Below are positions 8,570 through 64,000 of a DNA stretch of 64,000 nt, piece after piece. Origin of the DNA: Sediminibacter sp. Hel_I_10 (GTDB lineage: Bacteria; Bacteroidota; Bacteroidia; Flavobacteriales; Flavobacteriaceae); assembly GCF_000688335.1 (NCBI RefSeq), contig NZ_JHZX01000001.1, positions 2,604,001-2,668,000 of the forward strand. The letters run 5' to 3'. Positions within the stretch are counted from its first letter, which is position 1; the number at the start of each line of letters is the position of its first letter. The position numbers and the translations under genes were made by a program. Below the pieces are notes generated by a model. It searched no databases and was not told where the DNA came from. It worked only from the letters and a program-made list of their open reading frames with translations.

Positions 8570-8673
8570 TCTTTTTTTAATAAATTTAAGGAAAAAGCAC
8601 AGGTTCACAAAGTGATTTGGTGTTAAGGCAAATACTCATGAGCATTTCTATTATGATGACTTCTTCTGAAATG

Positions 8674-11121
8674 TTACGGATTAAGAGATTTGCTCTGTAA
8701 TTCCAATTGTCCAGTTTTTAATCCCTTCCCAGTTACTTTGACTGCTATAGAGCCAGCCTTTTCAATAGATTCAATAATTACCACTAATTTTCCGCTAAAA
8801 AGTTGCATTGTGGGTAAGTGAAACGGTTCCAAAGATGTCGGATCGCCATTGCAAACCGCTTTGAAGTTTCCGGCACCATTAACTTTAAAAGAAAGTGGCG
8901 TGCTTGCGGTAGGGCAGGGAATGCCATTTTTATCAACTACGGAAACCGTTATAAATGCAAGATCTTTACCATTGGCGGTAAGTGTTTTAACGTCTGGATC
9001 AAGAATAATCTGATCTGGTGTTCCTGCGGTGGTAACTTGTTCTTCTGCAACCGGTTTTCCATCTTTGTCGAGAGCGACCACTTTTAATGTGCCGGGTTGG
9101 TATTTGACATCCATCCACATTAAGCGGTATCGATTTTGTGGCGTACTTTTATTTTTATACTGAACGCCCAAGCTTTCGCCGTTTAAAAATAATTCGGCAC
9201 TATCGTAATTGGTATAAACAAAAACTGGAGTTGTTTTACCTTGGCGTTCTGGCCAATTCCAATGCGGAAGAATGTGTAATGTTTCATCTGTTGTATTCCA
9301 ACGACTTCTATAGAGGTAAAATCGATCTTTAGGAATGCCAGCCAAATCACAGATGCCAAAATAAGAGCTTCGTGCCGGCCACGCTTCATCATAAGGCGTA
9401 GGTTCTCCCAAATAGTCAAACCCCGTCCAAACAAACTCGCCAATTACCCAAGGCTTATCATCTTGCAGCACAAAGTCATCATCAGGAAGGTTGGACCAGC
9501 TGCAATACTCTAAATCGTAAGATGAAGATTGGAGATCGTCATACGTTTTCATAGCAGCTTTTTCTACAGGAAATTTGTAAATTCCTCTCGAGCTTACGGT
9601 TGATGCCGTTTCTGATCCTAAAATAAATCCTTGTGGAAAAGCCTCATAAGCATCTTCATATAAGTGAACCCGATAATTCAATCCAGGGACATCTAATAAT
9701 GCCCCAAATCCTGATGCCATAGTGGCCTTAACTTGATCCATTCCCACCGTTACTGGACGTGTGGGGTCTTCTCTATGAAAAATATCTTGTAACCATTTGG
9801 CTCGTTTTACACCTTCACTTCCCCATTGGTCTGGCACTTCGTTACCAGCGCTCCACATGATGATACTTGGGTGGTTTCGAGTTGCACGTACTAGGTTTAC
9901 CACATCTTTTTCGGCGTAGTCTTCAAAAAACCGATTATAGCCATTTTCTACTTTAGGTTTTGCCCATTCATCAAAACTCTCCGCTAAAAACATAAACCCC
10001 ATTTCATCACAGAGCTCTAATTGCTCAAGAGAAGGCATGTTGTGAGCGCTTCTTATGGCATCACAGCCCATGTCTTTTAAAATGCGCAATTGTCGTCTTA
10101 AGGCAGCGGTATTGATTGCAGTTCCCAACGGACCTAAATCGTGGTGAAGACAAACGCCTTTAAATTTTCTGACTTCTCCGTTTAAACTAAAGCCCTTATT
10201 GGGCTCGTACTTAATGTCGCGTATGCCAAATCGTTTTGTGACTTCATCCTTTAACTCATTACCATCAAATAATTTTATTACGGCGGTATATAAATACGGG
10301 TTTTCTGGGCTCCATAGGTTTGGATTTTCAACCGCTAAATTTTGCTCAAAGGTATTTCCGAAAATTTGTTCTGTTTCATTGGTGCTTACTTTATGGTCTT
10401 GGGCATCATAGACCTCGGTGAGCAAGCGCAAGTTTGCTCCAGACACCTCAGTTTTGACGTTCACTTTTGCCAAATTAGACGCTATAAAGGGTGTGGTGAT
10501 AAACGTACCCCATTGGTTAATACTCGATTTATCTTTAACAACAATGCTCACATTGCGATAGAGTCCAGCCCCAGGGTACCAACGTGACGATAGACCAAGA
10601 TTGTTTAATTTTACAGCGAGCAGATTAGTGTTATTGCCGTTTATGTGTTCTGTGATATCAAAATAGAAATAGCTATAACCATATTTCCATTCTCCAATCT
10701 TGTTGCCATTTAAAAAAACTTCTGGCTCGCTCATGGCACCTTCAAAAACAATCAATACTTTTTTGGTATCATCAAAATTTGGTAGCGAAAATGGATGTCT
10801 GTACCAAGCTTCTCCAATGTAAGGTAATGCACCAGTTCTGCCTGTTTTTTCAGAAGCAATTTGTTCGCCATTTTGTTCTATGGCTACAATTTGCTTGTCA
10901 ACCTCTTTGTCAAAAGGACCGTAAATGGCCCAATCATGAGGCACGGTAACAGACTCCCAATTGGCATCGTCAAATTCTGGAGATTTTGCATTATGGTGTT
11001 GGCCTTTATTGAATTTCCACCCATTTGTAAGTGTGATTTCCTGTCGTATCTGTGCGTTGACGCTTAAACTAAAAAGAAATAAAGCTAAAACGGTATTTAT
11101 GAAATATGTGGTGATTTTCAT
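8674..11121 (-). CDS. GH2 beta-galactosidase, secreted/periplasmic
   Basis: An 815-residue protein with a signal peptide (cleavage near VNA-Q24). It then has the GH2 sugar-binding beta-sandwich (about 30-200), an immunoglobulin-like domain, the TIM barrel (about 310-610), and C-terminal beta domains of the DUF4982/Ig-like kind. The acid/base is E428 in SAGNEVPDQW and the nucleophile is E562 in VIGEFVWTGF, so both catalytic residues are present. GH2 members may cleave beta-galactosides, beta-glucuronides or beta-mannosides. The directly adjacent GH53 endo-galactanase (9 bp upstream) makes beta-galactosidase acting on galacto-oligosaccharides the best reading. It is the last carbohydrate gene of the left arm of the locus. 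Confidence 0.9.
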   Translation of the reverse strand: MKITTYFINTVLALFLFSLSVNAQIRQEITLTNGWKFNKGQHHNAKSPEFDDANWESVTVPHDWAIYGPFDKEVDKQIVAIEQNGEQIASEKTGRTGALPYIGEAWYRHPFSLPNFDDTKKVLIVFEGAMSEPEVFLNGNKIGEWKYGYSYFYFDITEHINGNNTNLLAVKLNNLGLSSRWYPGAGLYRNVSIVVKDKSSINQWGTFITTPFIASNLAKVNVKTEVSGANLRLLTEVYDAQDHKVSTNETEQIFGNTFEQNLAVENPNLWSPENPYLYTAVIKLFDGNELKDEVTKRFGIRDIKYEPNKGFSLNGEVRKFKGVCLHHDLGPLGTAINTAALRRQLRILKDMGCDAIRSAHNMPSLEQLELCDEMGFMFLAESFDEWAKPKVENGYNRFFEDYAEKDVVNLVRATRNHPSIIMWSAGNEVPDQWGSEGVKRAKWLQDIFHREDPTRPVTVGMDQVKATMASGFGALLDVPGLNYRVHLYEDAYEAFPQGFILGSETASTVSSRGIYKFPVEKAAMKTYDDLQSSSYDLEYCSWSNLPDDDFVLQDDKPWVIGEFVWTGFDYLGEPTPYDEAWPARSSYFGICDLAGIPKDRFYLYRSRWNTTDETLHILPHWNWPERQGKTTPVFVYTNYDSAELFLNGESLGVQYKNKSTPQNRYRLMWMDVKYQPGTLKVVALDKDGKPVAEEQVTTAGTPDQIILDPDVKTLTANGKDLAFITVSVVDKNGIPCPTASTPLSFKVNGAGNFKAVCNGDPTSLEPFHLPTMQLFSGKLVVIIESIEKAGSIAVKVTGKGLKTGQLELQSKSLNP

Positions 11122-40745: not shown

Positions 40746-43139
40746 ATGACAGATATTAATGAAAATATAGAATTGCCTTTTGAGCTAAACATTAGCTTTA
40801 ACAAATTGTTGGAGTATTATGAAGAATTAGCTGAAAGTGACGATGAGTTTCTTGCAAAAAAAGCGCAACGTATTCTCAACAAGCAAAGCACAGCTCCAAT
40901 TTTAAGAGACGGTTTTAGCGAGGTTAAATATCTTAAAGAATACAAAGAGGAAATCAATTTTATTCTTCAAGATTCTTTTAATGAGATCTTGACGAGAAAT
41001 GAGATTAAAAATGCCTCAGTACCATTCCATAGTTTGATTTTTAGCTCTTCTAAGCGGTTTAAAAGCATTATAGAAGATGCTGGAGAAGATTTCAATCTCA
41101 AGGTCATCAATCTTCCTGAGAATGACAGGTATGTTATGGCCTGCACCATTATACTACATGCAGTATATGGATACGATTTAAATTTTAAGCGTCCATTTTA
41201 TTATGAAATTCCAGATAAAAAAGGCCATTTAAGACAGTATAAAATATTGTATAATGCAGATTTTACTGAGGTCATAAAAAAAGAATCAGCCCCTAATATT
41301 TCCGAAGAAGATTACAACGAGCTTTTAGATAATTTTGATGATATTTCGCTTTGGCACAAAAAATTTCCACCAAATAGTTATCTCTTTAAAGGATTCGTCA
41401 TTAACAATATGTTCGATATCACTATTGATCATGCCATTTCAGAAATTAAATCTAATTTGTTGATTTCTGTAAAAAGTCAAAGTGATTATTTTATAAAAAA
41501 CTTTGAGAAGACGTTTCGCTCTTTGTTCGATATTCAAGATATTGGAGTGGGATTTGTGATTTATAATAAATCTGAAGACACTTTTGAACATGTTATGGAT
41601 AAGGGGATCAATAGCTTTCTCTTATTAAATGAAGATAGTAAGGACTGTGTATCTGCACTTTGTGAGGGATCTTATAAAAAGCTCTTAACCGAAAAAAGCT
41701 TCTTTACCATTTCTGATGTGGATAAATACTTTGAGCAATCTAAAGGAGAAGCTCAGTATCAAACATTACATGAACAAGGAATTAAAAGCGCCATTTTTGC
41801 ACCAATCTCGTATGCCGGAGACCTTATGGGTGTTCTGGAGTTGGTCTCAAAAACACCTAAAGCTTTAAATAGCGTTAATGCCAATAAACTTAAAGATGTC
41901 ATGCCTTTTATTGTGTCTTCGGTGTTGCGTTCAAAAGCTGAAGAAGAGAATTTAATAGAGGCTGTGATCCAGCAAGAGTGTACTTCGATTCATCCCAGTG
42001 TCTATTGGAAATTTAGGGATGCTGCATATCAATTTTTAAAGGACAAGCAGCGATTTGGAGACAAGGCTATGTTTCGAGAGATTGTTTTCAATAACATTTA
42101 CCCGTTATTTGGGCAAATTGATGTTCAAGGATCTTCTGATGCTAGAAATCAGGCCACCAAAAAAGACTTGTCGCTACAATTGAGTTACGTATCCAAGATT
42201 ATGAAAAAAATAATGGATAGTGAATCTTTACCGGTCTATGATCAAATCTTGTTTCAGTTGAATACTTTTTCAGATGAACTTAACTCCGACTTTAAGGTCG
42301 ATAGTGAACAGCGCATTGTGACTTTTCTTAAAAAAGAGATCGAGCCCATTTTGAAATTTAAGTGTGAAAACGATGATTCGGGAGAGTTTAGAGCAGATAT
42401 CGAAAAGTATTTTGATAAGATTGATGAAGAGATGGAATTGATCTATTACTACCGAAAGAATTACGATGAAACGGTGGCACTCATCAATAAAAACATGGCT
42501 TTATTGATTGACCAAAAACAAGAAGAAGCGCAAGACATGTATCCGCACTATTTTGAGCGTTACAAAACGGATGGCGTTGAACATAACATGTACATTGGAG
42601 AAGCCATTACTAGAGCAGATAGTTTTAGCAAAGTGTATCTTTATAATCTTCGTTTATGGCAGCTACAGGTCATGTGTGAAATGGAAAATGCCTACTATCA
42701 AAATAGACATGAATATCCTATTGCGCTAAATGTGGCCTCGATGATATTGGTATTTAACCAGCCTTTATCCATAAGATTTAGAATGGATGAAAAACAGTTT
42801 GATGTAGATGGTACTTACAATGCCAGATATGAAGTGGTTAAAAAGCGTGTTGACAAAGCATTTATAAAAGGTACAGAAGAACGCGCCACCCAAAATGGAA
42901 AAATCACCATCGTTTATTCTCAAAAAGAGGATGAAGAAGAGTACCTTCAATATGTGAATTTCTTGCAGTCTAAAGACATTCTAAACGATGATGTTGAAAT
43001 TTTAGAACTTGAAAATCTGCAAGGGGTCACAGGGCTTAAAGCTATTAGGGTAAGTATTCTTTACCAGAGTAGTATTGATGATAAGACGAAGAAGGCCTTA
43101 TTTACCTATGATGACCTTATGAAAGAGATTAGCGCTTAA
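40746..43139 (+). CDS. Large GAF-domain protein of unknown function
   Basis: A 797-residue soluble protein with no signal peptide or membrane segment. A GAF-like sensor domain lies at about 250-400 (IQDIGVGFVIYN...IKSAIFAPISYAGDLMGVLELVS). The flanking regions are alpha-helical, and the C-terminal part (about 640-797) is mixed and ends in a small alpha/beta segment (NGKITIVYSQKEDEEEYLQY). No kinase, cyclase or DNA-binding output domain is apparent. Its stop overlaps by four bases the stop of the convergent HD/PycTM gene. GAF domains often bind cyclic nucleotides or redox ligands; the ligand here is unknown. Confidence 0.8.
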   Translation: MTDINENIELPFELNISFNKLLEYYEELAESDDEFLAKKAQRILNKQSTAPILRDGFSEVKYLKEYKEEINFILQDSFNEILTRNEIKNASVPFHSLIFSSSKRFKSIIEDAGEDFNLKVINLPENDRYVMACTIILHAVYGYDLNFKRPFYYEIPDKKGHLRQYKILYNADFTEVIKKESAPNISEEDYNELLDNFDDISLWHKKFPPNSYLFKGFVINNMFDITIDHAISEIKSNLLISVKSQSDYFIKNFEKTFRSLFDIQDIGVGFVIYNKSEDTFEHVMDKGINSFLLLNEDSKDCVSALCEGSYKKLLTEKSFFTISDVDKYFEQSKGEAQYQTLHEQGIKSAIFAPISYAGDLMGVLELVSKTPKALNSVNANKLKDVMPFIVSSVLRSKAEEENLIEAVIQQECTSIHPSVYWKFRDAAYQFLKDKQRFGDKAMFREIVFNNIYPLFGQIDVQGSSDARNQATKKDLSLQLSYVSKIMKKIMDSESLPVYDQILFQLNTFSDELNSDFKVDSEQRIVTFLKKEIEPILKFKCENDDSGEFRADIEKYFDKIDEEMELIYYYRKNYDETVALINKNMALLIDQKQEEAQDMYPHYFERYKTDGVEHNMYIGEAITRADSFSKVYLYNLRLWQLQVMCEMENAYYQNRHEYPIALNVASMILVFNQPLSIRFRMDEKQFDVDGTYNARYEVVKKRVDKAFIKGTEERATQNGKITIVYSQKEDEEEYLQYVNFLQSKDILNDDVEILELENLQGVTGLKAIRVSILYQSSIDDKTKKALFTYDDLMKEISA

Positions 43140-44410
43140 ACCCAATAAGTATCTATTGGGTTAGTGTTGATATCAGACGTTTCCACAGGAATTCCTGGGG
43201 TTTTAGGTAATACATCTTCAAAATCCCTTCCGTTTGTTTTTAGGGCTACAGCAAAAGCGATTACCGAAACAATAATCCCCGTCATAAACACGGTATAAGT
43301 AATTCTTAAGATTCTATATTTTCGCTCTAATACCACTCCTAGAAAATACAAATCCTTGGTAAGTGACTTGTACACGTATTCTTTGTCTTTTAAAAGTTCG
43401 GAGATGGCCCATTCAAAGTCATTCAGTTTCATTTTATGAAAATTTCCGAAGAAGGTTAAATTGACTTCCTTATTCTCCACATCTTCCTTTGTGAATTCTC
43501 CACTTGTAATATTAGGCCTTGTTGCGATAATGGATAGAATCATAGAGACTACACAAAACAAGGTAAAAATAGCCGTTGGATAGATGAGGTAGGCATTATT
43601 ATCTAAAGTGGCAATTAAATTTGCTAGAACCAAAGAAATGATAATGGCATTTACCGAAAGTAAAATGTTAGCTTTAGTATCGGCAATATCACTCAATTTG
43701 ATATGGTTTCTTAGTGCTACACGGTAAAAGGTTTGAATGCCACGTTCTGGACTTTCATTTTTATATTGGGCCTTGTATTTGGCCTTCATTTCCTCTTTCT
43801 TGTATTTCTTTTTAATCTTTTTCTTAGCTTTTAAGAGCTTTCCTAAATTATCACTTTTGGTCTCTTCCCAATTTTTTAAAGCATAATCGGTGTAAAATTG
43901 GTGCTGTTTGGCAAGTACCTTAATGTTCTCTTCGCGCCATTCTGGAGCAGTATAACTTTTGATGTTTCTTAGATCTAATTCCTTTCTCAAAAACTCACTT
44001 GCTTCTTCAAAATACTCCTTGCCAAAATGAGAGGCATCTGCATCCCTAATGATTTTGTCAAGTTCTGTCTTGGGAGAATCTTTAAACTTAGTGGCCATGA
44101 TGCACTTGTTAACGCCATCAATAATCGCTTTGTCAACATTGTGTTTGTTTAAAAATTCTGTGGCAATTTCTACACTGCGCTCTTCATGATCTTCGGTACC
44201 TTTGGTGTATCCGGTATCGTGTAAAAGGGCTGCTAGTTCGAGAATTTCTTCTTCTTGGCTAGATAGCTCACTATGCTCAATAAGTTCTCGTGTGCTTTTT
44301 AAAACACGCTCAGTATGCTTATAATTATGATATAAGAATGAGGGATCAAGTTCCTTTTTGAAAAGGTCAAAAACAAATTGTTCGGTTTTGGTAATGAGTT
44401 CAGATGCCAT
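43136..44410 (-). CDS. HD phosphohydrolase fused to a Pycsar-effector-like (PycTM/DUF5706) membrane domain
   Basis: A 424-residue protein. The N-terminal HD domain (about 1-180) has the metal ligands H32, H64-D65 (LLHDTGY) and D123 (IIRDADASH). A basic linker follows (about 190-220, KKKIKKKYKK). Then comes a PycTM-type region with FYRVALRNHIKLSDIADTKA and hydrophobic helices near 255-275, 280-300 and 375-395. In Pycsar defence, PycTM effectors damage the membrane when cCMP or cUMP binds. The same module also occurs in chromosomal proteins of flavobacteria with an HD domain, where the role is unknown. No nucleotidyl cyclase lies in the window. The HD domain could hydrolyse a nucleotide signal that the membrane part senses. 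Confidence 0.82.
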   Translation of the reverse strand: MASELITKTEQFVFDLFKKELDPSFLYHNYKHTERVLKSTRELIEHSELSSQEEEILELAALLHDTGYTKGTEDHEERSVEIATEFLNKHNVDKAIIDGVNKCIMATKFKDSPKTELDKIIRDADASHFGKEYFEEASEFLRKELDLRNIKSYTAPEWREENIKVLAKQHQFYTDYALKNWEETKSDNLGKLLKAKKKIKKKYKKEEMKAKYKAQYKNESPERGIQTFYRVALRNHIKLSDIADTKANILLSVNAIIISLVLANLIATLDNNAYLIYPTAIFTLFCVVSMILSIIATRPNITSGEFTKEDVENKEVNLTFFGNFHKMKLNDFEWAISELLKDKEYVYKSLTKDLYFLGVVLERKYRILRITYTVFMTGIIVSVIAFAVALKTNGRDFEDVLPKTPGIPVETSDINTNPIDTYWV

Positions 44411-44576
44411 AGAATAATATTAAATTCAGAATGTAAAACTACGAAATAACATGGTAACGTTTTTGATATATTTTTAACACAAATGCGTTTAATATTTGTA
44501 AATTATCATTTTTTTCAGACAAAATAAAACCCATTAGCATCAAGTTTTTTGCGTAGAAAGCATTTGATTTGAATCG

Positions 44577-44584
44577 TAACTTTG
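44577..44584 (+). promoter_or_regulatory. -7 element (TAnnTTTG) upstream of egtB
   Basis: TAACTTTG matches the Bacteroidota -7 consensus and lies 30 bases before the ATG at 44614. It overlaps the upstream TTG (44569) that would otherwise be a possible start, which argues for the ATG start of egtB. A well-spaced -33 box is not evident. Confidence 0.4.
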
Positions 44585-44613
44585 AATACAGCCAATCCAT
44601 TATAAAATATCAC

Positions 44614-45756
44614 ATGCTTAAAAAGCAATTTATTGAAACAAGAGCCCGATTTCTCAAAATCTGTGAAGATTTAAAGATAGAGGACTACTCTGTACAACCC
44701 GCTATTTTTGTGTCACCTCCAAAGTGGCACTTAGCCCATAGCACTTGGTTTTTTGAGCAATTTGTACTCTCAGAATTTAGTGAGGGTTATAAAATCTACG
44801 ACGAGGATTTTGCTTATTTGTTCAACAGTTATTATAATAATGCTGGCAAGCGCGTATTAAGACCTAATCGGGGATTGATGACCAGGCCTCCAGTAGAGGA
44901 CGTTTACGCTTATCGCGATTATGTTGACGCCGCTATGATTTCATTTTTAGAAGGTCATCCTTCTGAAAAAGCCATGACTGTGGTTCAATTGGGCATTCAG
45001 CATGAACAACAACACCAAGAGTTGTTTTGTTATGATATCAAATACATTTTAGGAAACCAACCTACCTTCCCTCTATTGAAGAATGATTTGACTTTAGCTG
45101 AAATTTCAAAACCTTCAACATGGTTAAAAGTAAATAAAGGACTTTACGATATAGGTCATACAGAAGAAACATTCTGCTATGATAACGAGTTAGGCCATAA
45201 CAAAGTGTTTTTGAATGCCTATGAGATAAGTGACCAATTGGTGACCAATAGAGAATATTTAGAATTCATGAAGGCTGGCGGTTATCAAGACTTTAATTTA
45301 TGGCATGCCGAAGGATGGGAATTCATTCAGCAAAATAATATCAAAGCACCAGAATATTGGCATGAGGTTGAGGGCGAATGGCACCAATATACCTTAGATG
45401 GTTTTATGAAAGTACATCCAGATCAACCGGTCATGCATGTGAGCATGTATGAGGCTTTTGCTTATGCCGAATGGCGAAATTTACGATTGCCAACAGAATT
45501 TGAATGGGAAGCAGCTTCGAGTCTTTTTGAATTTGGACAACTCTGGGAGTGGACCAATAGCGCTTATCTCCCTTATCCAGGTTTCTCTAAAGCACCAGGC
45601 GCTTTAGGTGAATATAACGGAAAATTTATGATTAACCAGATGGTGTTGAGAGGCGCTTCTATAGCGACTTGTCCAAATCACAGCCGTTCAACATACCGCA
45701 ATTTTTTTCACCCTAATATGAGATGGCAATTCTCAGGAATACGATTAGCAAAATAA
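44614..45756 (+). CDS. egtB: EgtB-like iron-dependent sulfoxide synthase (ergothioneine biosynthesis)
   Basis: I chose the ATG at 44614 (380 residues, MLKKQFIETR) over the in-frame TTG at 44569, because a promoter-like TAACTTTG overlaps the latter. An N-terminal DinB-like helical domain carries the three iron ligands, H39 (WHLAHSTWFF), H130 and H134 (HEQQHQE). A C-terminal FGE/sulfatase-modifying-factor-type domain follows (about 170-380, ending FHPNMRWQFSGIRLAK). EgtB joins trimethylhistidine to a thiol (cysteine or gamma-glutamylcysteine) with O2. The next gene, egtD, makes the trimethylhistidine and starts three bases later. No EgtC or EgtE gene is nearby. A related 5-histidylcysteine sulfoxide synthase (OvoA) is an alternative, but a separate EgtD favours ergothioneine. 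Confidence 0.88.
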   Translation: MLKKQFIETRARFLKICEDLKIEDYSVQPAIFVSPPKWHLAHSTWFFEQFVLSEFSEGYKIYDEDFAYLFNSYYNNAGKRVLRPNRGLMTRPPVEDVYAYRDYVDAAMISFLEGHPSEKAMTVVQLGIQHEQQHQELFCYDIKYILGNQPTFPLLKNDLTLAEISKPSTWLKVNKGLYDIGHTEETFCYDNELGHNKVFLNAYEISDQLVTNREYLEFMKAGGYQDFNLWHAEGWEFIQQNNIKAPEYWHEVEGEWHQYTLDGFMKVHPDQPVMHVSMYEAFAYAEWRNLRLPTEFEWEAASSLFEFGQLWEWTNSAYLPYPGFSKAPGALGEYNGKFMINQMVLRGASIATCPNHSRSTYRNFFHPNMRWQFSGIRLAK

Positions 45757-45759
45757 GAT

Positions 45760-46701
45760 ATGAACCATCCATTTGCCCAAGATGTTATCAAGGGATTATC
45801 ACTAGAACAAAAAAAGTTATCTTCTAAATACTTTTATGACGATAACGGCAGCCGCATTTTTCAAGAAATCATGCAAATGCCAGAATACTATCTAACAGAT
45901 TCTGAATTTGAAATACTGTCCTTACAGGCCAAACAAATTGTAGAAAAACTAAAATTTTCTGAGCCCTTCAATATTATTGAACTGGGAGCAGGTGACGGAT
46001 TTAAAACTTTTAAGCTGCTGGAATATCTAGTTAATGCCGAAATTGATTTTACGTACATGCCTATTGATATATCTCAAGAGGCCAATGATATTTTGCAAGA
46101 AAAGCTAAAGGAGCGCTTACCTGATTTATCCATCACGCCCAAGACGGGAGATTATTTTGAGGTTATTGAAAAGATTGGTAAACAAAGCACGCCCAATTTG
46201 CTCTTGTTTTTAGGGGGTAATATTGGTAATTATCCAAAAGAGGAAGCTCTAGACCTGCTCAACTTGTTTAACAGCAGTATGAACGTTGGTGATAAATTAC
46301 TGATAGGGCTAGACTTGAAGAAAAATCCCATTACCATTCACAATGCTTATTATGATCAAGGTGGTATTACAAAGCGGTTCAACTTAAACCTGTTGATACG
46401 GATAAATAGAGAATTTGATGCCGATTTTAAAATAGACGATTTTGATTTCTATTGCCATTATGACCCAGATAATGGTAAGGTAAAAAGTTTTATAGTGAGT
46501 CTTAAACAGCAATCTGTGTATTTAAAAGCTTTGGATACAACCATTCATTTTAATCAGAACGAATTGATTTGGACGGAACTTTCAAAAAAATATGATGTTG
46601 AAGAAATAGAGACCTTAGCAGAGCTAACCAACTTTAAAGTCAATCATCACTTTTTGGATTGTAAGCATTATTTTACAGATAGCTTGTGGGAAAAAAAATA
46701 G
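45760..46701 (+). CDS. egtD: EgtD: L-histidine N-alpha-methyltransferase
   Basis: A 313-residue SAM-dependent methyltransferase of the EgtD family. It has the N-terminal YFYDDNGSRIFQEIMQMPEYYLTDSE motif (given here only as its key parts YFYDD and PEYYLT), the SAM-binding IIELGAGDGFKT, and the LLLFLGGNIGNY motif. It converts histidine to hercynine (N-alpha-trimethylhistidine), the substrate of EgtB. It is cotranscribed with egtB, with a three-base gap. The length matches EgtD (about 320). The product is an antioxidant betaine in the cytosol. Confidence 0.92.
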   Translation: MNHPFAQDVIKGLSLEQKKLSSKYFYDDNGSRIFQEIMQMPEYYLTDSEFEILSLQAKQIVEKLKFSEPFNIIELGAGDGFKTFKLLEYLVNAEIDFTYMPIDISQEANDILQEKLKERLPDLSITPKTGDYFEVIEKIGKQSTPNLLLFLGGNIGNYPKEEALDLLNLFNSSMNVGDKLLIGLDLKKNPITIHNAYYDQGGITKRFNLNLLIRINREFDADFKIDDFDFYCHYDPDNGKVKSFIVSLKQQSVYLKALDTTIHFNQNELIWTELSKKYDVEEIETLAELTNFKVNHHFLDCKHYFTDSLWEKK

Positions 46702-46774: not shown

Positions 46775-49700
46775 ATGAAGTTATATAGAATAGCATTTAT
46801 CATCATTTCTTTAGCAATTCTCAATGCTTGTGCCACTTACAAGGCTCAATACCGCAATGAGGAAGATAAAATCATTGAGTTGCCAGACAAAGAGATCGAA
46901 AAGACATTTTATCTTGTTGGCGACGCAGGAACCTCTCCGCAAGGTGGCATGAGCACAGCGCTTACTGTTTTCAATAAACATATCGCAGAGCGCGAAACAC
47001 AAGGTGATTACACGATATTTTTAGGTGATAATATTTATCCTGCAGGTCTTCCAAAAGAAGGCCAAAAAGGAAGAGCAACTGCTGAAAATGCCCTTAATGG
47101 GCAAATTAAATCTGTAGATAATTTTGAGGGTGAGGTTGTTTTTATCCCTGGTAATCACGATTGGTATGCCGATGGACCAAAAGGCTTGCGTTTAGAAGAA
47201 AAATACGTTGACGATGCTTTGGGTAAAAATACGTTTCAGCCAGAAAAAGGATGTCCGCTGGTAAGTATAGACGTCAGTGAGACGGTACAGCTCATCGTCA
47301 TTGATACGCAATGGTATCTCGAGAATTGGAACCGTCATCCTACCATGAATGATAATTGCGAGATCAAAACCCGAGAGCGTTTTTTCTTAGAGCTTGATGG
47401 GGAGCTTAAAAAGGCGCAAAACAAAACGATTGTATTTGCCATGCACCATCCCATGTATACAAACGGAGTTCATGGGGGTAATTATGCTATTTCAAAGCAT
47501 CTGTTTCCCACTCAAAAAAAGATTCCGATACCTATTTTGAGTTCTTTAGCGACCCAAATTAGAACCCAAGGCGGTGTATCCATTCAAGATCGTTACAACG
47601 AAAGCTACAATAACTTGATGAATAGAATTGAGACCTTAGCTCTTGACGCTGATAAGTTGGTGTTTGTTTCTGGTCATGAGCATACGTTGCAATACAATGA
47701 AAAGGGAAATATTAAGCAAATCGTTTCAGGATCAGGTGCTAAAGAATCTTATGCGACGCTAGCAGATACTGGTTTGTTCTCTTACGGAAAACAAGGTTTT
47801 GCAGAACTCACAATTTATAAGGATGGCAGCAGTTGGGTCTCTTTTTACGGTGAGGAAAATGGCAAACCCAAAAAGCTTTTTGTTAAAGAGATCATGACAC
47901 CTACCGAAGCGTTTGATGTGTCAAATTTACCCGATAGTTTTCCGCAAGAAGTGGAAACATCGGTCTATACCGCTGAGCAAACTAAAAAATCAGACTTTTT
48001 TAAGTCGGTGTGGGGCGAGCACTACCGCCACATTTACAGTACAAAGATTAAAGCGAAAGTGGCCACATTGGATACCCTGTACGGTGGATTGGAAATTGTA
48101 CGCGCTGGAGGAGGTCACCAAACGAGATCTTTGCGTTTAAAAACTAAGGATGGTCGTGAGCTCAACATGAGAGCACTCAAGAAAAGTGCAACACAGTATT
48201 TACAAACAGTCCTGTTTAAAGACACTTATATTCAGGATGAATTTGAGAAAACGGCTGTTGAGGAGCTCATCTTCGATTTTTATACCGCAGCTCATCCTTA
48301 TGCATTTACTGTGGTGCCAGATTTATCTGATGCAGCCGAAATATACCATACCAATCCAAAATTGTACTTTATTCCGAAGCACAAATACTTAGGGCGATAC
48401 AATGTAGATTATGGAGGGGAACTTTACATGATAGAAGAGCGGCCAGAAGATAACTACACCAAGGAGCGTAATTTTGGATATGCCGATGATATTGAAAGTA
48501 CTCACGACATTATTGAAAAAGTTAGAGAGGACGAGAAGTACAAAATTGATGAGAATGCTTATATAAGAGCGCGTTTATTTGATATGCTTATTGGCGATTG
48601 GGATCGTCATCAAGATCAATGGCGTTGGGCTCAATTTGACCAAGAAAATGGAGATAAACTGTTTAGACCTATTCCAAGAGATAGAGATCAAGTGTTTTCT
48701 AATTTTGATGGTTCTTTGTTAGATGTGATGCGTATTATTGCTGGACCAGCCAAGCAATTGCAAGTGTATGATGAAGAGCTTAAGAATATTGATTGGATGA
48801 ATGCTGCTGGGATCAAATTAGATCGTGTACTGGTTCAAGCTTCAGAGCGTGAAACATGGATTAAGCATGCAAAATTTCTCGAAGAACACATCACTGATGA
48901 GGTCATCGATAGGGCATTTACAAAAGTGCCAGAGGCCGCACAGGATAGTACCTTGCAAGAAATCAAAGTCAAGTTGAAAGGCAGACGTGGTAATCTGGTA
49001 GATATTGCCAATAGATACTATGAGCACCTTAATAAATTGGCCATATTATCGGGTACAGATAAAGATGATTATATAGAGATCACCCGAGTGGGAAATAATA
49101 AGACGCGTGTGAAAATTTCTCGAATTAAGGATGGTGAAAAAGGCGAAGTGGTTGTAGATAAAGTGTTTGACAAGAACATCACCAAAGAAATATGGGTTTA
49201 TGGTCTTGATGATACCGATGTGTTTGAAGTGACAGGAAAAGCCAATAACCCTATTTTTATAAGGCTTATCGGTGGTCAGGAAAATGACACGTACATCATA
49301 GAAAATGGAAGAAGGGTGAAGTTCTATGATCACGAAAGTAAAGAGAATACGGTTAAGAAAAATAAAGGAGGTACAGAGCGATTTACAGATGTGTACACAC
49401 TCAATCTTTTTGATTATCAAAAAAACATCTCCAAGAATAAAGTGTTTACACCGGTATTAGGATTTAATCCAGATGACGGGATTTCCCTTGGGTTGGCGTT
49501 TTCCTCAACTACCAATGGCTTTCAGCGTAATCCATTTTCTCAACAGCACCGTTTTAAGGGCGGATATTACTTTGCGACAAGTGGTTTTTCTTTGAAGTAC
49601 GAAGGTGAGTTTGCTAATATCATGAACGATTGGAACTTGCAAATAGGCGGACAATTTACCTCCGAAAACTTTACGAACAATTTTTTTGGCTTCGGAAATG

Positions 49701-50482
49701 AAACAGTCAATCGTGATGACGAGTTAGACTTTGATTATAATCGCGTCAAGACAAGCATCTATGGTGCCAGAGCAGGGATTATTAAAAAAGGGAGTTTTGG
49801 TAGTGATTATGGGTTTAGGGCCGTTTTTGAAGCCATTGAGATTGGAGATACGGCCAATAGGTTTATTACTACTGATTTTGTATCAAGTGAAAATACTGAT
49901 TTCTATGAAAGACGTCTCTTTGGCGCATTAGAAGCAGAATATAATTACGAGAGTTTTGATAAGAAAAATAGTCCTTCACGAGGGATGACATTTTTACTGA
50001 ACGTTGGTGCGAAAACTGAATTTAATACTATTGAAAATTTATATGGATATGTAAACTCTAGCCTTGGGTTTTACAATTCGATTTCAAGAAATAGAAAATT
50101 GGTATTAAAAACCGATGTAAGAACCCAATTAAGAATTGGAGACGGATTTCAGTTTTACCAAGCGTCAAGAATTGGCGGAAAAAGTGGGCTAAGAGGATAT
50201 CGCGCGCAACGTTTTACAGGGAGAAATTCTTTTGTTGGGAGTACCGATCTAAGATACAGTTTTAATGCCATTAAAACCAATACTTTACCACTGCAACTGG
50301 GAGTGTTTGGAGGTTTTGACGTAGGTCGAGTTTGGATTGAAAATGATTTTTCAGACAAATGGCATAACGATTATGGAGGAGGCTTATGGATTACCGCAGC
50401 AGATAGTTTGTCAGGAACTTTCAATTTATTTCACGGAGATGAAGGCCTTTGGTTTACCTTTGGTTTTGGACTTAATTTCTAA
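46775..50482 (+). CDS. Lipoprotein fusion: metallophosphoesterase - kinase-like segment - Omp85-like barrel
   Basis: A 1235-residue SPII lipoprotein (Cys19 in LNACATY). Residues about 44-330 are a calcineurin-type phosphoesterase with all metal motifs: GDAG (49-52), GDN (84-86), GNHDW (126-130), HHP (224-226) and GHEH (300-303). Residues about 430-720 carry GGGHQTRSLRLK (445-456), RALKKSA (466-472), GDWDRHQDQWRW (from 607) and PRDRDQVF (from 634). These look like the Gly-loop/Lys, DRH catalytic loop and DxD metal motif of HipA/PI4K/FAM20-type kinases. Residues about 900-1235 form a beta-barrel with the Omp85 LRGY motif (1139-1142) and end in F. The barrel would sit in the outer membrane with the catalytic parts in the periplasm. 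The kinase reading is my inference. A paralogue starts at 61635. Confidence 0.82.
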   Translation: MKLYRIAFIIISLAILNACATYKAQYRNEEDKIIELPDKEIEKTFYLVGDAGTSPQGGMSTALTVFNKHIAERETQGDYTIFLGDNIYPAGLPKEGQKGRATAENALNGQIKSVDNFEGEVVFIPGNHDWYADGPKGLRLEEKYVDDALGKNTFQPEKGCPLVSIDVSETVQLIVIDTQWYLENWNRHPTMNDNCEIKTRERFFLELDGELKKAQNKTIVFAMHHPMYTNGVHGGNYAISKHLFPTQKKIPIPILSSLATQIRTQGGVSIQDRYNESYNNLMNRIETLALDADKLVFVSGHEHTLQYNEKGNIKQIVSGSGAKESYATLADTGLFSYGKQGFAELTIYKDGSSWVSFYGEENGKPKKLFVKEIMTPTEAFDVSNLPDSFPQEVETSVYTAEQTKKSDFFKSVWGEHYRHIYSTKIKAKVATLDTLYGGLEIVRAGGGHQTRSLRLKTKDGRELNMRALKKSATQYLQTVLFKDTYIQDEFEKTAVEELIFDFYTAAHPYAFTVVPDLSDAAEIYHTNPKLYFIPKHKYLGRYNVDYGGELYMIEERPEDNYTKERNFGYADDIESTHDIIEKVREDEKYKIDENAYIRARLFDMLIGDWDRHQDQWRWAQFDQENGDKLFRPIPRDRDQVFSNFDGSLLDVMRIIAGPAKQLQVYDEELKNIDWMNAAGIKLDRVLVQASERETWIKHAKFLEEHITDEVIDRAFTKVPEAAQDSTLQEIKVKLKGRRGNLVDIANRYYEHLNKLAILSGTDKDDYIEITRVGNNKTRVKISRIKDGEKGEVVVDKVFDKNITKEIWVYGLDDTDVFEVTGKANNPIFIRLIGGQENDTYIIENGRRVKFYDHESKENTVKKNKGGTERFTDVYTLNLFDYQKNISKNKVFTPVLGFNPDDGISLGLAFSSTTNGFQRNPFSQQHRFKGGYYFATSGFSLKYEGEFANIMNDWNLQIGGQFTSENFTNNFFGFGNETVNRDDELDFDYNRVKTSIYGARAGIIKKGSFGSDYGFRAVFEAIEIGDTANRFITTDFVSSENTDFYERRLFGALEAEYNYESFDKKNSPSRGMTFLLNVGAKTEFNTIENLYGYVNSSLGFYNSISRNRKLVLKTDVRTQLRIGDGFQFYQASRIGGKSGLRGYRAQRFTGRNSFVGSTDLRYSFNAIKTNTLPLQLGVFGGFDVGRVWIENDFSDKWHNDYGGGLWITAADSLSGTFNLFHGDEGLWFTFGFGLNF

Positions 50483-50493
50483 AAGCAGAATCT

Positions 50494-51816
50494 TTGAAAC
50501 GTTATTTATATATTGTTCTTAAATATTTTACCAATCTAGAAAGTAATATCGCTTTCTACCCCTCACTGATCAGTTTGTTCGGGTTGGTTTTTGCCTTCTT
50601 TATGATTGTGATGGAAAGTCTTGGGGCTTCAAGATATCTTGTGGAGCATGCACCTGTTTTAGTGGTAAATAATGTAGAAACAGCCAGAAGTCTGCTAACT
50701 ACTTTTATTGCCGGACTTATTTCTATAATGGTGTTTAGCTTTTCACTTGTGATGATATTGCTTAATCAAGCCTCTAGTAATTTTTCTCCTAGATTACTAC
50801 CAGGACTTATTTCAAATAGAAGACATCAAATTATTCTTGGTATTTATAACGGCACATTGCTGTATTCCATTTTCACCTTAGTCTCCATTGTCCCTACTGG
50901 TGACAAATACCAATTACCAGGCTTTTCTGTGTTATTGAGTATTATTTTTATGACCTTGAGTCTAGGCGCATTCATTTACTTTATTCATTCGATCTCTCAA
51001 GAGATTCAGGTGAATACAATCATGGATAAAATCTTTAAAACCTCAAAAGGACGATTGGATAAATTAATAGAGGCAGAGAAAGAACTCGATATTGATTTTG
51101 GCGACACATCAGATTGGAAAGAAATTATGGCCGATGATACCGGTTATTTGCAGGATGTAAGCTTAAAATCTTTGGCCGAAATTGTCAAAGAGCATAATTT
51201 AAGAGTAGAAATTGTACCTATAAAAGGCGCCTACGTACTTCGAGGCATTCCTGTAATACGGTACAAAGGAGAAATCAATGATGATGAGCTAGAAAAAGAG
51301 ATGTTAGATACCATCACCTTCTCTAAAGATGAACTTATTGAAGATAATTATGTGCTCGCTTTTAAGCAAATTACCGAGATTGCTTTAAAAGCAATGTCAC
51401 CAGGAATTAATGATCCAGGAACATGTATTAATGCTATTGATTATTTGACCGAGCTTTTTGCATTACGCATGAAAAAGAAAGATGTGAGCTACTATTTTAA
51501 TGAAGACGATGAGGCGCTCATTTTTATAAAAACCGTTAGTTTTAAGCAACTGTTGTACAATGTTATGGCGTCACTTCGTACCTATTGCAAACATGACATT
51601 ATCATTGTGCAAAAGCTTTTTATTATGCTTCAGTATTTATTGCAGAGTCGAGAGGTGCTTAAAGAGTCTTACAAGGAATCTATTATTGCCGAAATTCAGA
51701 ACCTAAAGACCGATGCCCTTAAAAACCATGACAATGAAGCCGATCTTGAGGTGATTCATAATTACATAAACAATTTGGAGCGAAGAAATCCTTCAGAATA
51801 TGAGTTTGAATCATAA
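50494..51816 (+). CDS. DUF2254 family membrane protein
   Basis: A 440-residue protein with four hydrophobic helices in its first 170 residues (LISLFGLVFAFFMIVM; FIAGLISIMVFSFSLVMILL; YNGTLLYSIFTLVSIV; LLSIIFMTLSLGAFIYFI) and a cytosolic C-terminal domain with the DUF2254 hallmark ALKAMSPGINDPGTC. The start is a TTG, 11 bases after the preceding stop; no in-frame ATG occurs before residue 37, which would cut the first helix. The function of the family is unknown. By spacing it may be cotranscribed with the phosphoesterase/barrel gene. Confidence 0.85.
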   Translation: MKRYLYIVLKYFTNLESNIAFYPSLISLFGLVFAFFMIVMESLGASRYLVEHAPVLVVNNVETARSLLTTFIAGLISIMVFSFSLVMILLNQASSNFSPRLLPGLISNRRHQIILGIYNGTLLYSIFTLVSIVPTGDKYQLPGFSVLLSIIFMTLSLGAFIYFIHSISQEIQVNTIMDKIFKTSKGRLDKLIEAEKELDIDFGDTSDWKEIMADDTGYLQDVSLKSLAEIVKEHNLRVEIVPIKGAYVLRGIPVIRYKGEINDDELEKEMLDTITFSKDELIEDNYVLAFKQITEIALKAMSPGINDPGTCINAIDYLTELFALRMKKKDVSYYFNEDDEALIFIKTVSFKQLLYNVMASLRTYCKHDIIIVQKLFIMLQYLLQSREVLKESYKESIIAEIQNLKTDALKNHDNEADLEVIHNYINNLERRNPSEYEFES

Positions 51817-52617
51817 CTCAAAACGATATAAATTTCCACCTTCATGACCTTTTTGTTCATCAGTAATTAGAACTTCGTTTTCCCTTATAAAGACAATGCC
51901 CTCTTTTTGTGAGTCGTGATCAAATCCTATGACTTCAACCGTACCTTCAAAAAAAGCATCAGATTTAAAATTGGTAAGTTTCCAAACTTTCTCGTGGTTC
52001 AATAACACAACTGTTTTGCCATTGGCACTAATGTCGGCAGAGGTCACTTTATCGTGCTTACCATCGAGGTTAAATTTAATCACCTCTTTGGCAACTTGGT
52101 TCCCAATGTTGTTTTCTACGGAAATCATCACCCCGTGTTTGTCATCTTTGCTGAAAATATAAAACCGGTTCTTAAATAAGAAGAATGCTTCAAAATCCAT
52201 GGACTCCATATCCTCAGGAAGTTTGAAAGCTATGGTTTCAGCCTTGCAGGTTTTGTCTTCTTTCCCGGGACGCTCAACTTTATAGATTTGAAAATCTTCT
52301 CGATCTTTTCCGTTATTGCCAAAATCGCCAATGTAGACGTTGCCTTCAGAATCGGAGGCAAGATCTTCCCAATCGGTATTAATTGCGCCTTCCACCTCAA
52401 GCGTCTTGCTCAATTGTCCTTTACCGTCAAGAGCAAAAAGGGTATTGGGATTGCCGGCATCTTCAATAACCCATAATAAACGATCATTGGCCGTATATTC
52501 TAGGGCAGAGGCTTCCTTCATTCCAAAAGGTAAATCTGTGATGTTGTCTAGTTTACCAGTTTGGCAGGAGCTAATAAGTACAAAGTGCAGTATAATGATG
52601 ATCTGTAGTGCTTTCAT
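51811..52617 (-). CDS. Predicted beta-propeller lipoprotein
   Basis: A 268-residue SPII lipoprotein (Cys18 in LISSCQTG). It has repeated beta-strand blocks with motifs such as LWVIEDAGNP, TDWEDLASD...VYIGDFGNN, YIFSKDD and VLITDEQ, resembling propeller proteins of the SdiA-regulated/NHL kind. The recurring D-x-G-N and W-E-D-L segments suggest calcium or ligand binding. It is convergent with the DUF2254 gene, overlapping it by six bases. Its substrate and role are unknown. Confidence 0.75.
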   Translation of the reverse strand: MKALQIIIILHFVLISSCQTGKLDNITDLPFGMKEASALEYTANDRLLWVIEDAGNPNTLFALDGKGQLSKTLEVEGAINTDWEDLASDSEGNVYIGDFGNNGKDREDFQIYKVERPGKEDKTCKAETIAFKLPEDMESMDFEAFFLFKNRFYIFSKDDKHGVMISVENNIGNQVAKEVIKFNLDGKHDKVTSADISANGKTVVLLNHEKVWKLTNFKSDAFFEGTVEVIGFDHDSQKEGIVFIRENEVLITDEQKGHEGGNLYRFEL

Positions 52618-61634: not shown

Positions 61635-64000
61635 ATGGTGTATTATACTTCTGCACAAATTTTCCCTTTTGTCAAAAAAATAAGCTTGTTTATATGTTTT
61701 GCTTTGGCAATGATTACTGGAGCTTTCGCTCAAGATAAAGAGGTGGAGCAAACCTTTTATTTTACAGGAAACACTGAGCTTGAAACCGGTAATCCCACTC
61801 AAGCAGTCTTAAAGGCGATAACTGAAATGTCCCAAAAAGACGACAAGGCTACGTTTGTAGCACTTGGAAATATTACTAAAAACGGCTATGCTCCGAAGAA
61901 AAAGGATCGTAAAGAAACCGAAGAATTACTGCAAGCGAGTTTGATGCAGCCGTTGAGCAAATTCAATGGAAATGTGATATTTATTCCAGGTAAAAATGAA
62001 TGGAATAAAAACGGCCACGAGAATATTGACGATATGGAGTCTTTTATTCAAGATAATAGCGAAGTCAAGTTTTGGCCCAATGATGGTTGCCCTAGAGAGA
62101 TAGAAGATCTAGACATGGATAACGTAGAGTTGCTCATGATTGATTCGCAGTGGTTCTTAGAGGACTGGGATGACCATTTATATCTTAATAATAAATGTGA
62201 CATTAAATCCCGAGATGACTTTATTGCAAAGTTTAAAGATGATCTCAAAGACGAGCAAAACAAGACCGTAATCGTTGCCATTCATCATTCTATTCTTACC
62301 TATTCGCGTCAAGATTTCTTTGAAAATATTGGAGGGCTTAGCGTCGAGGATTATTATAGCACACAACGTCAAAAATTGGCAGGCACATTAGAAACGTTAG
62401 CAGGCCTGTTTCCTGATGTTATTTTTGTTTCGGCTAGTGACAAAAACCTACAATACATAGCCGATGATGGTGTACGTCAAATTATTAGTGGCGCTTCGTC
62501 TTCAAAATTAGATAATGTTAGAAAAGCTAAAGACGGTCAGTTTACGTCAAAAACCAATGGTTTTGCGAGACTTACAGTTTATAAAGATCGCAGTTCTAAA
62601 GTAGAATTTTTTGCAACGGGAGATGACCTTCCGAAGAAATTATTCGAAAAGGAAATTAAACGTCAGCAAACCACTCCAGACGAAGTCTCTTATCCTGATA
62701 TAAGTACGTTTGGAGATACTTACAGAGCTTCTATTTATACAGAAGAGGAAACAAAAAAGAGCGGATTACACCGTTTTTTATGGGGTAAGCATTACCGTGA
62801 TGTTTACAGTAAAGAGATTGAAGCTCCAGTTTTAAATCTGGCAGAACTTCCTGGAAATGTTCACGCGATTTCTGAAGGTGGTGGTAATCAATCCCGTTCG
62901 TTAAGATTGATAGATGATAATGAGAATGAGTATACTGCTCGCGAACTCCGCAAAAGTGCTACACGATTTATTCAGTCTAAAATAAAAGATCATTATGTTC
63001 AAGATTTTATGCAAAATACCGTTGCAGAAGATATTGTTCAAGATTTTTATACGACGGCCCAGCCTTACGCGCCCTTTGCACTTAATCCTATTTTTGATAG
63101 TCTTGATATTTACAATGCAGAACCAAAGATCTATTATCTGCCTAAGCAAAAACAATTAGGCATTTATAACGAAGATTACGGTGATAAGCTTTACATGCTT
63201 GAGGCGCATGCGGGAGATGAGAATAAGTCTTTTGCCCGCTTCGGAAACCCAGATGATATCATAAGCACCAAAGATCTATTAGCAGAAATTAGAGCGTCGA
63301 AAAAAAATCAAGTTGATGAGCCTAATTTCTTAAAAGTACGATTGATGGATTTTGTGGTTGGTGATTATGACCGTCACTACGATCAATGGCGTTGGTCTGC
63401 TTACGAAAAAGAAGATGGTACAACCTTATATAAAACAATCCGTCGTGATCGTGATCAAGCATTTCCAAGATATGATGGGGTGATATTAAGCATATTGAAA
63501 ATGGGCTTGATTGACTTTAGATCTATGGAGCGTTATGATGATGATGTGGATAATGTAAAATGGATGAGTCGTTATGCCTACCCACTAGATCAAGCATTCC
63601 TTAAGGAGATTACTTGGGAAGATTGGCAAAAGCAAGTGCAGTTTATTCAGCAAAACTTAACCGATGATACCATTGAAAAGGCGTTTGAAACACTTCCAGA
63701 AGCTGCTCAAGATGCGAGTATAACTGATATCAAAAAAGCGTTGAAGGCCAGAAGAGATAATTTGGAGTCTATTGCCAGACGTTATTATGAGTATTTGATG
63801 AGTCATCAAATTATTTTAGGGACCAAAGAGAAAGATGATTTCTTAATTACGCGCAAGCCTAATGGCGAGACCACTGTAAAACTAACTACAGAAGACGATC
63901 AAATTTTTGAAAGAACTTACAGTAAAGAAGTGACTAAAGAAATCTGGATTTACGGACTAGATGATGAAGATACTTTTAAGGTTGTTGGAGAAGGTGACAA
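61635..64000 (+). CDS. Metallophosphoesterase/kinase-like paralogue, phosphoesterase motifs degenerate (runs off window)
   Basis: The frame is open from ATG 61635 to the window edge (788 complete codons) and continues beyond it. It has a signal peptide (cleavage near AFA-Q33), not a lipobox. It aligns throughout with the 46775 protein: the N-terminal phosphoesterase domain, then HAISEGGGNQSRSLRL (Gly 415-417), RELRKSAT (436-443), GDYDRHYDQW (from 576) and RRDRDQAF (603-610). The phosphoesterase ligands are mostly lost: GDAG reads TGNT, GNHDW reads GKNEW (119-123) and GHEH reads SASD (266-269), while one IHHS remains. The first domain is therefore probably inactive. Spacing from the DRH Asp to the DxD Asp is 28 residues in both proteins. 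The C-terminus is not visible, and a barrel is expected by homology. Confidence 0.85.
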   Translation, partial: MVYYTSAQIFPFVKKISLFICFALAMITGAFAQDKEVEQTFYFTGNTELETGNPTQAVLKAITEMSQKDDKATFVALGNITKNGYAPKKKDRKETEELLQASLMQPLSKFNGNVIFIPGKNEWNKNGHENIDDMESFIQDNSEVKFWPNDGCPREIEDLDMDNVELLMIDSQWFLEDWDDHLYLNNKCDIKSRDDFIAKFKDDLKDEQNKTVIVAIHHSILTYSRQDFFENIGGLSVEDYYSTQRQKLAGTLETLAGLFPDVIFVSASDKNLQYIADDGVRQIISGASSSKLDNVRKAKDGQFTSKTNGFARLTVYKDRSSKVEFFATGDDLPKKLFEKEIKRQQTTPDEVSYPDISTFGDTYRASIYTEEETKKSGLHRFLWGKHYRDVYSKEIEAPVLNLAELPGNVHAISEGGGNQSRSLRLIDDNENEYTARELRKSATRFIQSKIKDHYVQDFMQNTVAEDIVQDFYTTAQPYAPFALNPIFDSLDIYNAEPKIYYLPKQKQLGIYNEDYGDKLYMLEAHAGDENKSFARFGNPDDIISTKDLLAEIRASKKNQVDEPNFLKVRLMDFVVGDYDRHYDQWRWSAYEKEDGTTLYKTIRRDRDQAFPRYDGVILSILKMGLIDFRSMERYDDDVDNVKWMSRYAYPLDQAFLKEITWEDWQKQVQFIQQNLTDDTIEKAFETLPEAAQDASITDIKKALKARRDNLESIARRYYEYLMSHQIILGTKEKDDFLITRKPNGETTVKLTTEDDQIFERTYSKEVTKEIWIYGLDDEDTFKVVGEGD

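Follow-up and report, generated by a model that had tools for sequence, protein, structure and literature searches.

The window analysed here, a 64,000-nucleotide stretch of Sediminibacter sp. Hel_I_10 (contig NZ_JHZX01000001.1, positions 2,604,001 to 2,668,000), contains an intact open reading frame at 46775-50482 on the forward strand that starts with ATG, runs free of stop codons and encodes 1235 residues. Its product is a predicted lipoprotein that combines a phosphatase, a kinase-fold domain and an Omp85 barrel in one chain, an architecture proposed by the original prediction from the sequence alone and borne out by the lipobox, Pfam, AlphaFold and Foldseek. The middle domain appears from its structural model to be a new kinase-fold family. 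The whole protein is tentatively regarded as an exported, outer-membrane-anchored bifunctional phosphotransfer protein whose two sites could serve one envelope pathway; the analysis supports the fold, motifs, architecture, co-occurrence, copy divergence and gene linkage, from which catalysis, periplasmic side, substrate and donor are inferred. The features of the gene are as follows.

46775..46831, + strand: lipoprotein signal peptide, predicted from the sequence, with the lipobox LNAC at residues 16-19 (Cys19)
46907..47899, + strand: purple-acid-phosphatase-like metallophosphoesterase, residues 45-375 (Pfam Metallophos, motifs and PDB sequence matches)
47957..49054, + strand: kinase-fold domain of an unnamed family, residues 395-760 (AlphaFold and Foldseek; standalone in frames of 429-431 residues)
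48107..48121, + strand: Gly-rich loop GGGHQ, residues 445-449, between two N-terminal strands
48182..48184, + strand: beta3 lysine K470, at the end of model strand E78-86, conserved in relatives
48596..48622, + strand: catalytic loop DWDRHQDQW, residues 608-616, with D610 and with Q615 at the kinase Asn position (CtkA alignment)
48680..48688, + strand: DRD, residues 636-638, after model strand E244-250; D638 is taken as the equivalent of the DFG Asp
49055..49414, + strand: all-beta stretch ahead of the barrel, residues 761-880 (DSSP of the model, Pfam)
49430..50479, + strand: Omp85 beta-barrel, residues 886-1235, with 16 long strands, LRGY and a C-terminal Phe (AlphaFold, Foldseek)

The three predicted modules

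The motif strings on which the kinase proposal was built each occur once in the protein: GGGHQTRSLRLK at residues 445-456, RALKKSA at 466-472, GDWDRHQDQW at 607-616 and RDRDQVF at 635-641, as do LRGY at 1139-1142 and the terminal Phe at 1235. The spacing given with them needs correction, as the Gly-rich loop starts 142 residues past the last phosphatase motif and not 300.

Residues 385-880 were modelled with AlphaFold from an alignment of 72 rows that comprised the window protein, its paralogue in the window and sequences of the named loci, giving a predicted local distance difference test score (pLDDT) of 88 and a predicted template modelling score (pTM) of 0.89. A Foldseek search of this model against the PDB returned 14 matches at E<=1e-3, of kinase fold by title or by recall, including Rv3197, MSMEG_1954, PI4KII-alpha, HipA, ADCK3/COQ8A, Rio2 and a pre-40S chain, with a probability of 1.00 for PI4KII-alpha (4hnd) and up to 1.00 for HipA. 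Several titles of Rv3197 and MSMEG_1954, both of which we take to be of the ABC1-type kinase fold, name complexes with AMPPNP or ADP, and the pre-40S chain is presumably a RIO kinase. Of the other rows among the 50 matches listed, some have titles that name kinases, pseudokinases, mTOR complexes or a phosphotransferase, and the rest are entries that we take to be of kinase fold (the mdt protein, hipBA, YihE and a second pre-40S chain). Since the identical search with the barrel model listed only Omp85-type rows, the search does not yield kinases for every input. A fold unrelated to kinases, which the original prediction named as a refutation, did not appear in structure prediction and Foldseek.

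The model also places the proposed motifs on strands and helices in the order Gly-rich loop, Lys, DRH loop and DxD. Two strands flank the loop at 445-449, the strand that follows carries R466 and K470, a helix contains D501, and E554 ends a strand; then come model helix 209-222, DWDRHQDQW, two further strands and DRD at 636-638. A Gly-rich loop between beta1 and beta2, a beta3 Lys, a catalytic-loop Asp and a metal Asp after beta8 are the elements of a protein-kinase-like fold, which the middle domain very probably has; on the strength of the model, the kinase call appears to hold as a statement of fold.

The motifs are widely conserved in relatives. The 178 collected domains comprise 177 distinct ones, the window's included, of which 137 rows carry a phosphatase and 40 do not. 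K470 is kept in 136, D610 in 135 and D638 in all of the 137 phosphatase-bearing rows, while the 40 others keep them in 35, 34 and 31 rows, respectively. D501, the candidate for the acidic residue of alphaC, is found in 134 of the 137, at a site where the model is weak (pLDDT about 63). The conservation of K470, D610 and D638 across the 177 distinct domains indicates that the kinase motifs are not due to chance. Alignment A4 omits 17 row sets with changed motifs and was thinned at 62% identity, so that its invariant columns lean to intact copies.

Sequence comparisons led towards several kinase families and into none of them. In Pfam nothing matches the window protein's middle segment at E<=10, and a Pfam scan of 20 family members gave 12 families with one member each (best E 0.019), among which CotH (one of the 20 members, E 0.19, cutoff not passed) was the sole kinase family by name; HipA_C (PF07804) and PF00454 were not among the matches of the 20. 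With the Fam20C (PF06702) hidden Markov model, the best match in 148 genomes was the middle domain of a family member, at 20.4 bits and below the cutoff of 26.8. A 67-row profile searched against the PDB placed CtkA first of three matches (E 0.16), DRH loop on DRH loop, and HHalign aligned catalytic loop on catalytic loop for both CotH (P 0.0032) and HipA (P 0.015), compared with P 0.043-0.71 for nine unrelated control families. The likeness to PI4K, HipA and FAM20 kinases originally proposed is found in Foldseek, in weak in-register matches to CtkA, CotH and HipA and in a subthreshold match to Fam20C. Because no family cutoff was passed, the domain is assigned to the kinase fold and to no known family.

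The phosphatase module is more readily classified. Its Pfam Metallophos match reaches 41.4 bits against a cutoff of 21.5, and all five motifs expected of an intact phosphoesterase are present (GDAG at residue 49, GDNIY at 84, GNHDWY at 126, HH at 224-225 and GHEH at 300-303), which together with the Tyr of GDNxY places it in PF00149 as a purple-acid type. The domain keeps GDxG, GDNxY, GNHD, HH and GHxH with all seven scored ligand positions, and its six PDB sequence matches at E<=10 are all purple acid phosphatases (E 0.005-0.0097). Among 144 phosphatase domains of the collected relatives, 124 have all seven ligands, 16 have at least two changed, none has exactly one changed and four are gapped at one or more ligand positions, two of these four being the window paralogue, which is entered twice. 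By a simple rule that overlooks some clear lipoboxes, a lipobox was found in 115 of 131 phosphatase-bearing relatives away from contig or stretch ends and in one of 30 kinase-barrel relatives without a phosphatase, again away from ends.

The C-terminal part was modelled over residues 870-1235 with 16 long strands and a pLDDT of 92. All 50 Foldseek matches listed are BamA or the BAM complex, TamA or the SAM complex, with a best E of 4.9e-13 and a template modelling score (TM-score) of up to 0.67 on the query, and the predicted 16-strand barrel together with the (V/L)RG(F/Y) motif, here LRGY, identifies an Omp85 barrel. Its family models stay below cutoff, with ShlB at 16.1 bits against 22.7 (Pfam scan at E<=1) and the NCBIfam Omp85_fam model at 54 bits against 200. 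No POTRA domain was recognised in the Pfam scan of the window protein, in which residues 761-880 are all-beta in the model. This segment, 49055-49414, carries a GGxxxD turn that we take to be reminiscent of calcium-binding RTX repeats, and in the alignment it is present in barrel-bearing members and absent from two standalone proteins of 429-431 residues. Omp85 proteins with a non-POTRA domain or with no N-terminal domain are listed in a 2014 survey (PMC4104836).

Architectures, copy divergence and linkage to PPK1

Relatives were found by profile P0001 in 132 of 296 Bacteroidota genomes, and the kinase-fold profile found the domain in 145 of 395 sampled Bacteroidota genomes. Five plasmid records also hold relatives (three from Hymenobacter, one each from Persicobacter and Parabacteroides), four annotated as hypothetical protein and one without a feature. 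A scan of viral contigs gave 34 pattern matches with no relative confirmed, and no relative was found in phage records. Most of the 178 collected domains lie in phosphatase-kinase-barrel frames (137, six of them at a contig or stretch end), followed by kinase-barrel frames (35, five at an end) and frames with neither partner (5); the last one is the paralogue that the end of the window truncates. In two of the five partnerless cases, L048 and L243, the kinase-fold domain, the phosphatase and the barrel are encoded by three genes in a row, and the products of the first and the second each have a lipobox. The modules go together, whether on one chain or on separate ones.

The Sediminibacter genome itself holds four copies, of which the window copy has both sites, two have lost phosphatase ligands and the fourth encodes the kinase-fold domain by itself behind an N-terminal hydrophobic anchor. 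Besides the copy described above, one more begins within the window.

61635..64000, + strand: paralogue continuing past the window end, a 1195-residue frame with the kinase motifs kept and most phosphatase ligands lost

No lipobox was found in this paralogue (L003/L052), which from its sequence is a natural kinase-only candidate.

Tandem pairs occur at four loci, L081, L086 and L087 in Aequorivita and L096 in Marixanthomonas. In the upstream copies 7, 6, 6 and 4 of the seven phosphatase ligand positions are changed and the kinase motifs are kept. The downstream copies have 7/7 phosphatase ligands, with GNHE replacing GNHD, and an altered kinase site in which the Gly-rich loop is lost, H612 is replaced by E or S, Q615 by H and D636 by N; D501 is changed in three of the four, and K470, D610 and D638 are kept in all. 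At L092 the downstream copy is of the same altered kind with Q in place of K470, and the upstream copy is cut by the contig. A description of the downstream copies as kinase-dead was rejected on recount, and since D610 and D638 are kept, they are termed altered and a true reciprocal loss is not claimed.

A tree of 95 rows was inferred from the region C-terminal to the kinase-fold domain alone. Its rows were drawn from 169 possible ones (172 minus L057, L078 and the cut L092 copy) and comprise roughly a third of the intact rows, their tandem partners and every row of another kind, with the changed-motif labels set by hand. The four upstream rows group in one clade and the five downstream rows in another (100* each). 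The label for a lost phosphatase with a kept kinase (14 rows) changes eight times on the tree, at least six of these being forced by starred branches; that for an altered kinase with a kept phosphatase (5 rows) changes once, and that for a changed kinase without a phosphatase (10 rows) six times. Both sites are changed in L217 and L235. These label changes suggest that the tandem pattern probably reflects one event, while losses of the phosphatase site that spared the kinase-fold site happened more than once. Such naturally phosphatase-less copies offer ready-made comparisons.

Gene neighbourhoods were compared at 79 flavobacterial loci and 43 distant loci, which were hand-picked, several from one genome and three from plasmids; at L253 a longer antisense frame displaced the domain's own frame, so that the genes beside it did not count as neighbours. 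The polyphosphate kinase gene PPK1 was present in 13 of the 43 distant stretches (L256, L259, L260, L262-L264, L270, L276, L277, L279, L280, L289 and L290). For a test of this linkage, 80 genomes were hand-picked for spread from the 145, their domain copies being at least those located. PPK1 was also present in 75 of the 80, and it lay within 10 kb of the domain in 21 of the 75, from 10 family groups, compared with 0.76 expected for random places, and within 15 kb in 27 of the 75 (1.14 expected); genomes of one family group are not independent in these counts. In G118 the PPK1-linked copy is the standalone one. A rough check by eye found no HipA match (nine shared genomes) and no CotH match (six) within 10 kb of PPK1. 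Besides PPK1, L260 and L262-L264 contain an HD+PycTM gene and a gene of 168-177 residues that we take to be SixA-like, and L054 (contig C15 of G152) has a relative made up of the phosphatase alone (190733 on), with a PPK1 match about 2.8 kb away.

A proposed bifunctional phosphotransfer protein and its alternatives

In the tentative explanation favoured here, the modelled C-terminal Omp85 barrel would hold the protein in the outer membrane and the predicted N-terminal lipid would tie down the phosphatase end. The kinase-fold domain, presumably on the periplasmic side, would most likely move a phosphoryl group from a donor to an envelope substrate, and the purple-acid-phosphatase-like domain would most likely remove or trim phosphate in the same pathway. 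A tie of this pathway to polyphosphate metabolism is suggested by the PPK1 gene linkage. Judging from the motifs, the kinase-fold domain is probably an active phosphotransferase, a view favoured by the retention of metal and nucleotide residues even where phosphatase ligands are lost.

Several observations weigh against this explanation. With respect to the fold, the Foldseek TM-scores are 0.13-0.32 on the query and at most 0.36 on the target with a root-mean-square deviation of 8-21, values that fit a distant relative carrying additional parts, and the would-be alphaC helix around D501 is modelled with low confidence (pLDDT 50-63). With respect to the sequence, no known kinase family matched above cutoff, the HHalign probabilities are 9.9% for CotH and 3.0% for HipA, and a 20-row profile searched against the PDB placed CtkA sixth of seven (E 0.23), behind five non-kinase chains. 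Where kinases usually have Asn, five residues past the catalytic Asp, 163 of the 177 distinct rows have Gln and five have Asn; this position is variable in atypical kinases. As for the copies, the altered downstream ones, L092 included, keep D610 and D638 in 5/5 and K470 in 4/5, and ten barrel-bearing tree rows without a phosphatase persist despite changed kinase motifs. PPK1 is near no copy in the window's own genome and in only one of the 79 flavobacterial loci, and ATP is not known to occur in the periplasm.

The alternative that best survives, although doubtful, is that the kinase-fold domain is a non-catalytic, pseudokinase-like binding or scaffold module that would regulate the phosphatase or the barrel on sensing a nucleotide, polyphosphate or a lipid phosphate. 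The exported location without known ATP and the Gln at the Asn position agree with such a role, as do the changed kinase motifs in 17 of the 95 tree rows (marked by hand), ten of which are the barrel proteins without a phosphatase. However, K470, D610 and D638 are each kept in at least 135 of the 137 distinct phosphatase-bearing rows, and the kinase motifs persist in the 14 tree rows whose phosphatase ligands are lost, with at least six forced changes.

It is unlikely that the protein moves phosphate on envelope lipids by an LpxT-like logic, with a non-nucleotide donor such as undecaprenyl diphosphate and with the phosphatase and the kinase-fold site acting in sequence. This donor is suggested by two plasmid loci: on one Hymenobacter plasmid an undecaprenyl-diphosphate phosphatase gene (L255, 1783-2616; annotated coding sequence 1831-2619) immediately precedes a full-length copy, and on another a PAP2 phosphatase gene lies about 2.9 kb downstream of a copy, with four annotated genes between. 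Against it stand the restriction to these two loci and the normal use of nucleotides by kinase-fold enzymes. An extended version of the favoured phosphotransfer reading, that of a kinase and phosphatase pair outside the cytosol at the outer membrane, with a donor other than cytosolic ATP, polyphosphate being the candidate that the PPK1 linkage suggests, and with activities divisible between gene copies, is considered quite unlikely. A type Vd-like autotransporter, in which the enzyme domains would be cargo pushed through the barrel to the cell surface, shares the combination of enzyme and Omp85 barrel with PlpD, but it is very unlikely, as the enzyme domain of PlpD was found periplasmic according to the available text of that report (PMC11116518) and enzyme and barrel lie on separate chains in the split gene sets. 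Least probable is another fold with a chance likeness to kinases, to which the low TM-scores and the absence of a Pfam match for the window domain at E<=10 would point, against a confident model, kinase-fold Foldseek matches and independent in-register sequence matches.

The phosphotransfer reading would add to the exported kinases an unnamed kinase-fold family that is present in about one third of the sampled Bacteroidota genomes and that, in the outer membrane, is joined with a phosphatase in one chain. Bacterial phosphorylation outside the cytosol, and its donor, thereby become testable in laboratory Flavobacteria, with the polyphosphate kinase linkage as the first concrete lead.

Other neighbouring genes and comparison with known systems

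Two further genes in the window are conserved neighbours of the family.

51811..52617, - strand: SdiA-regulated/phytase-like propeller gene (distant-neighbour profile match, E 3.2e-9)
43136..44410, - strand: HD+PycTM protein, at 55 of 79 flavobacterial and 21 of 43 distant loci

The propeller family occurs at 37 of the 79 flavobacterial and 17 of the 43 distant loci, its gene being directly upstream on the same strand in 15 loci, with Pfam names checked for six. PycTM takes its name from a Pycsar effector, and the HD+PycTM gene near the family looks like a conserved chromosomal gene. A 797-residue protein encoded at 40746-43139 (+), with at most a below-cutoff GAF match, recurs at 41 of 79 and four of 43 loci. 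Directly upstream of the phosphatase-kinase-barrel gene, 44569-46701 (+) contains EgtB together with a gene resembling EgtD that stays under the NCBIfam cutoff, each found at 8 of 79 loci, and DUF2254 has 10 matches in the flavobacterial loci, one locus being counted twice; local synteny likely accounts for the presence of EgtB/EgtD and DUF2254 near the gene. In L260, an adenylate/guanylate cyclase and TPR protein (7973-9931, -) adjoins the kinase-barrel gene.

Among known kinases, PI4K type II resembles the middle domain by its Foldseek match to 4hnd, but PF00454 (PI3/PI4 kinase) was matched in none of 148 genomes at E<=0.001. HipA and CtkA (PF07804) are alike in Foldseek and in the CtkA DRH loop that aligns with that of the window protein; they differ in lacking a PF07804 match among the 20 scanned members, and these kinases are cytosolic. 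For CotH (PF08757), GNWD and IPYDYD of a Bacteroidota set align on GDWDRH and IPRDRD of the window domain, but PF08757 is matched by only the one member mentioned above, and CotH finds nothing in the window genome at E<=1e-10. The accessible text on CotH describes an atypical kinase-like fold with a distant relation to Fam20C (PMC7821199). The likeness to Fam20 secretory kinases (PF06702) lies in an exported kinase fold, with a Golgi casein kinase among the Foldseek matches, and in a catalytic Asp with His two residues on, as in Asp299 and His301 of hmFam20 in the available account (PMC5865150), whereas the one matching member scores below the family cutoff.

The phosphatase resembles purple acid phosphatase/TRAP (ACP5) in its motifs, including the Tyr of GDNxY, and in its sole PDB sequence matches, but differs in its fusion to kinase-fold and barrel domains, its own function being predicted from sequence. 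PlpD, a patatin-Omp85 protein, likewise has an enzyme domain tied to an Omp85 barrel, with another enzyme and its own POTRA domain in the text available (PMC11116518). Closest in domain make-up is the Omp85 subfamily 'Metallo' of Heinz and Lithgow (2014), which carries PF00149, a domain that they term a metalloprotease, and, in the accessible text, is conserved at genus level only (PMC4104836). The window protein likewise joins PF00149 to an Omp85 barrel, and it is likened to 'Metallo' by this make-up and not by comparison with the sequences of the survey, the main text of which contains zero occurrences of 'kinase' (PMC4104836). The kinase-fold part has no description among the literature matches listed, most subscription papers and preprints being outside their scope, and a search for 'GDWDRH' gave zero among the best 15 of 22 matches listed. 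The statement of the original prediction that it knew of no such system needs correction: the phosphoesterase-Omp85 fusion was already known from the survey (PMC4104836), and it is the kinase-fold part for which no description was found among the matches listed.

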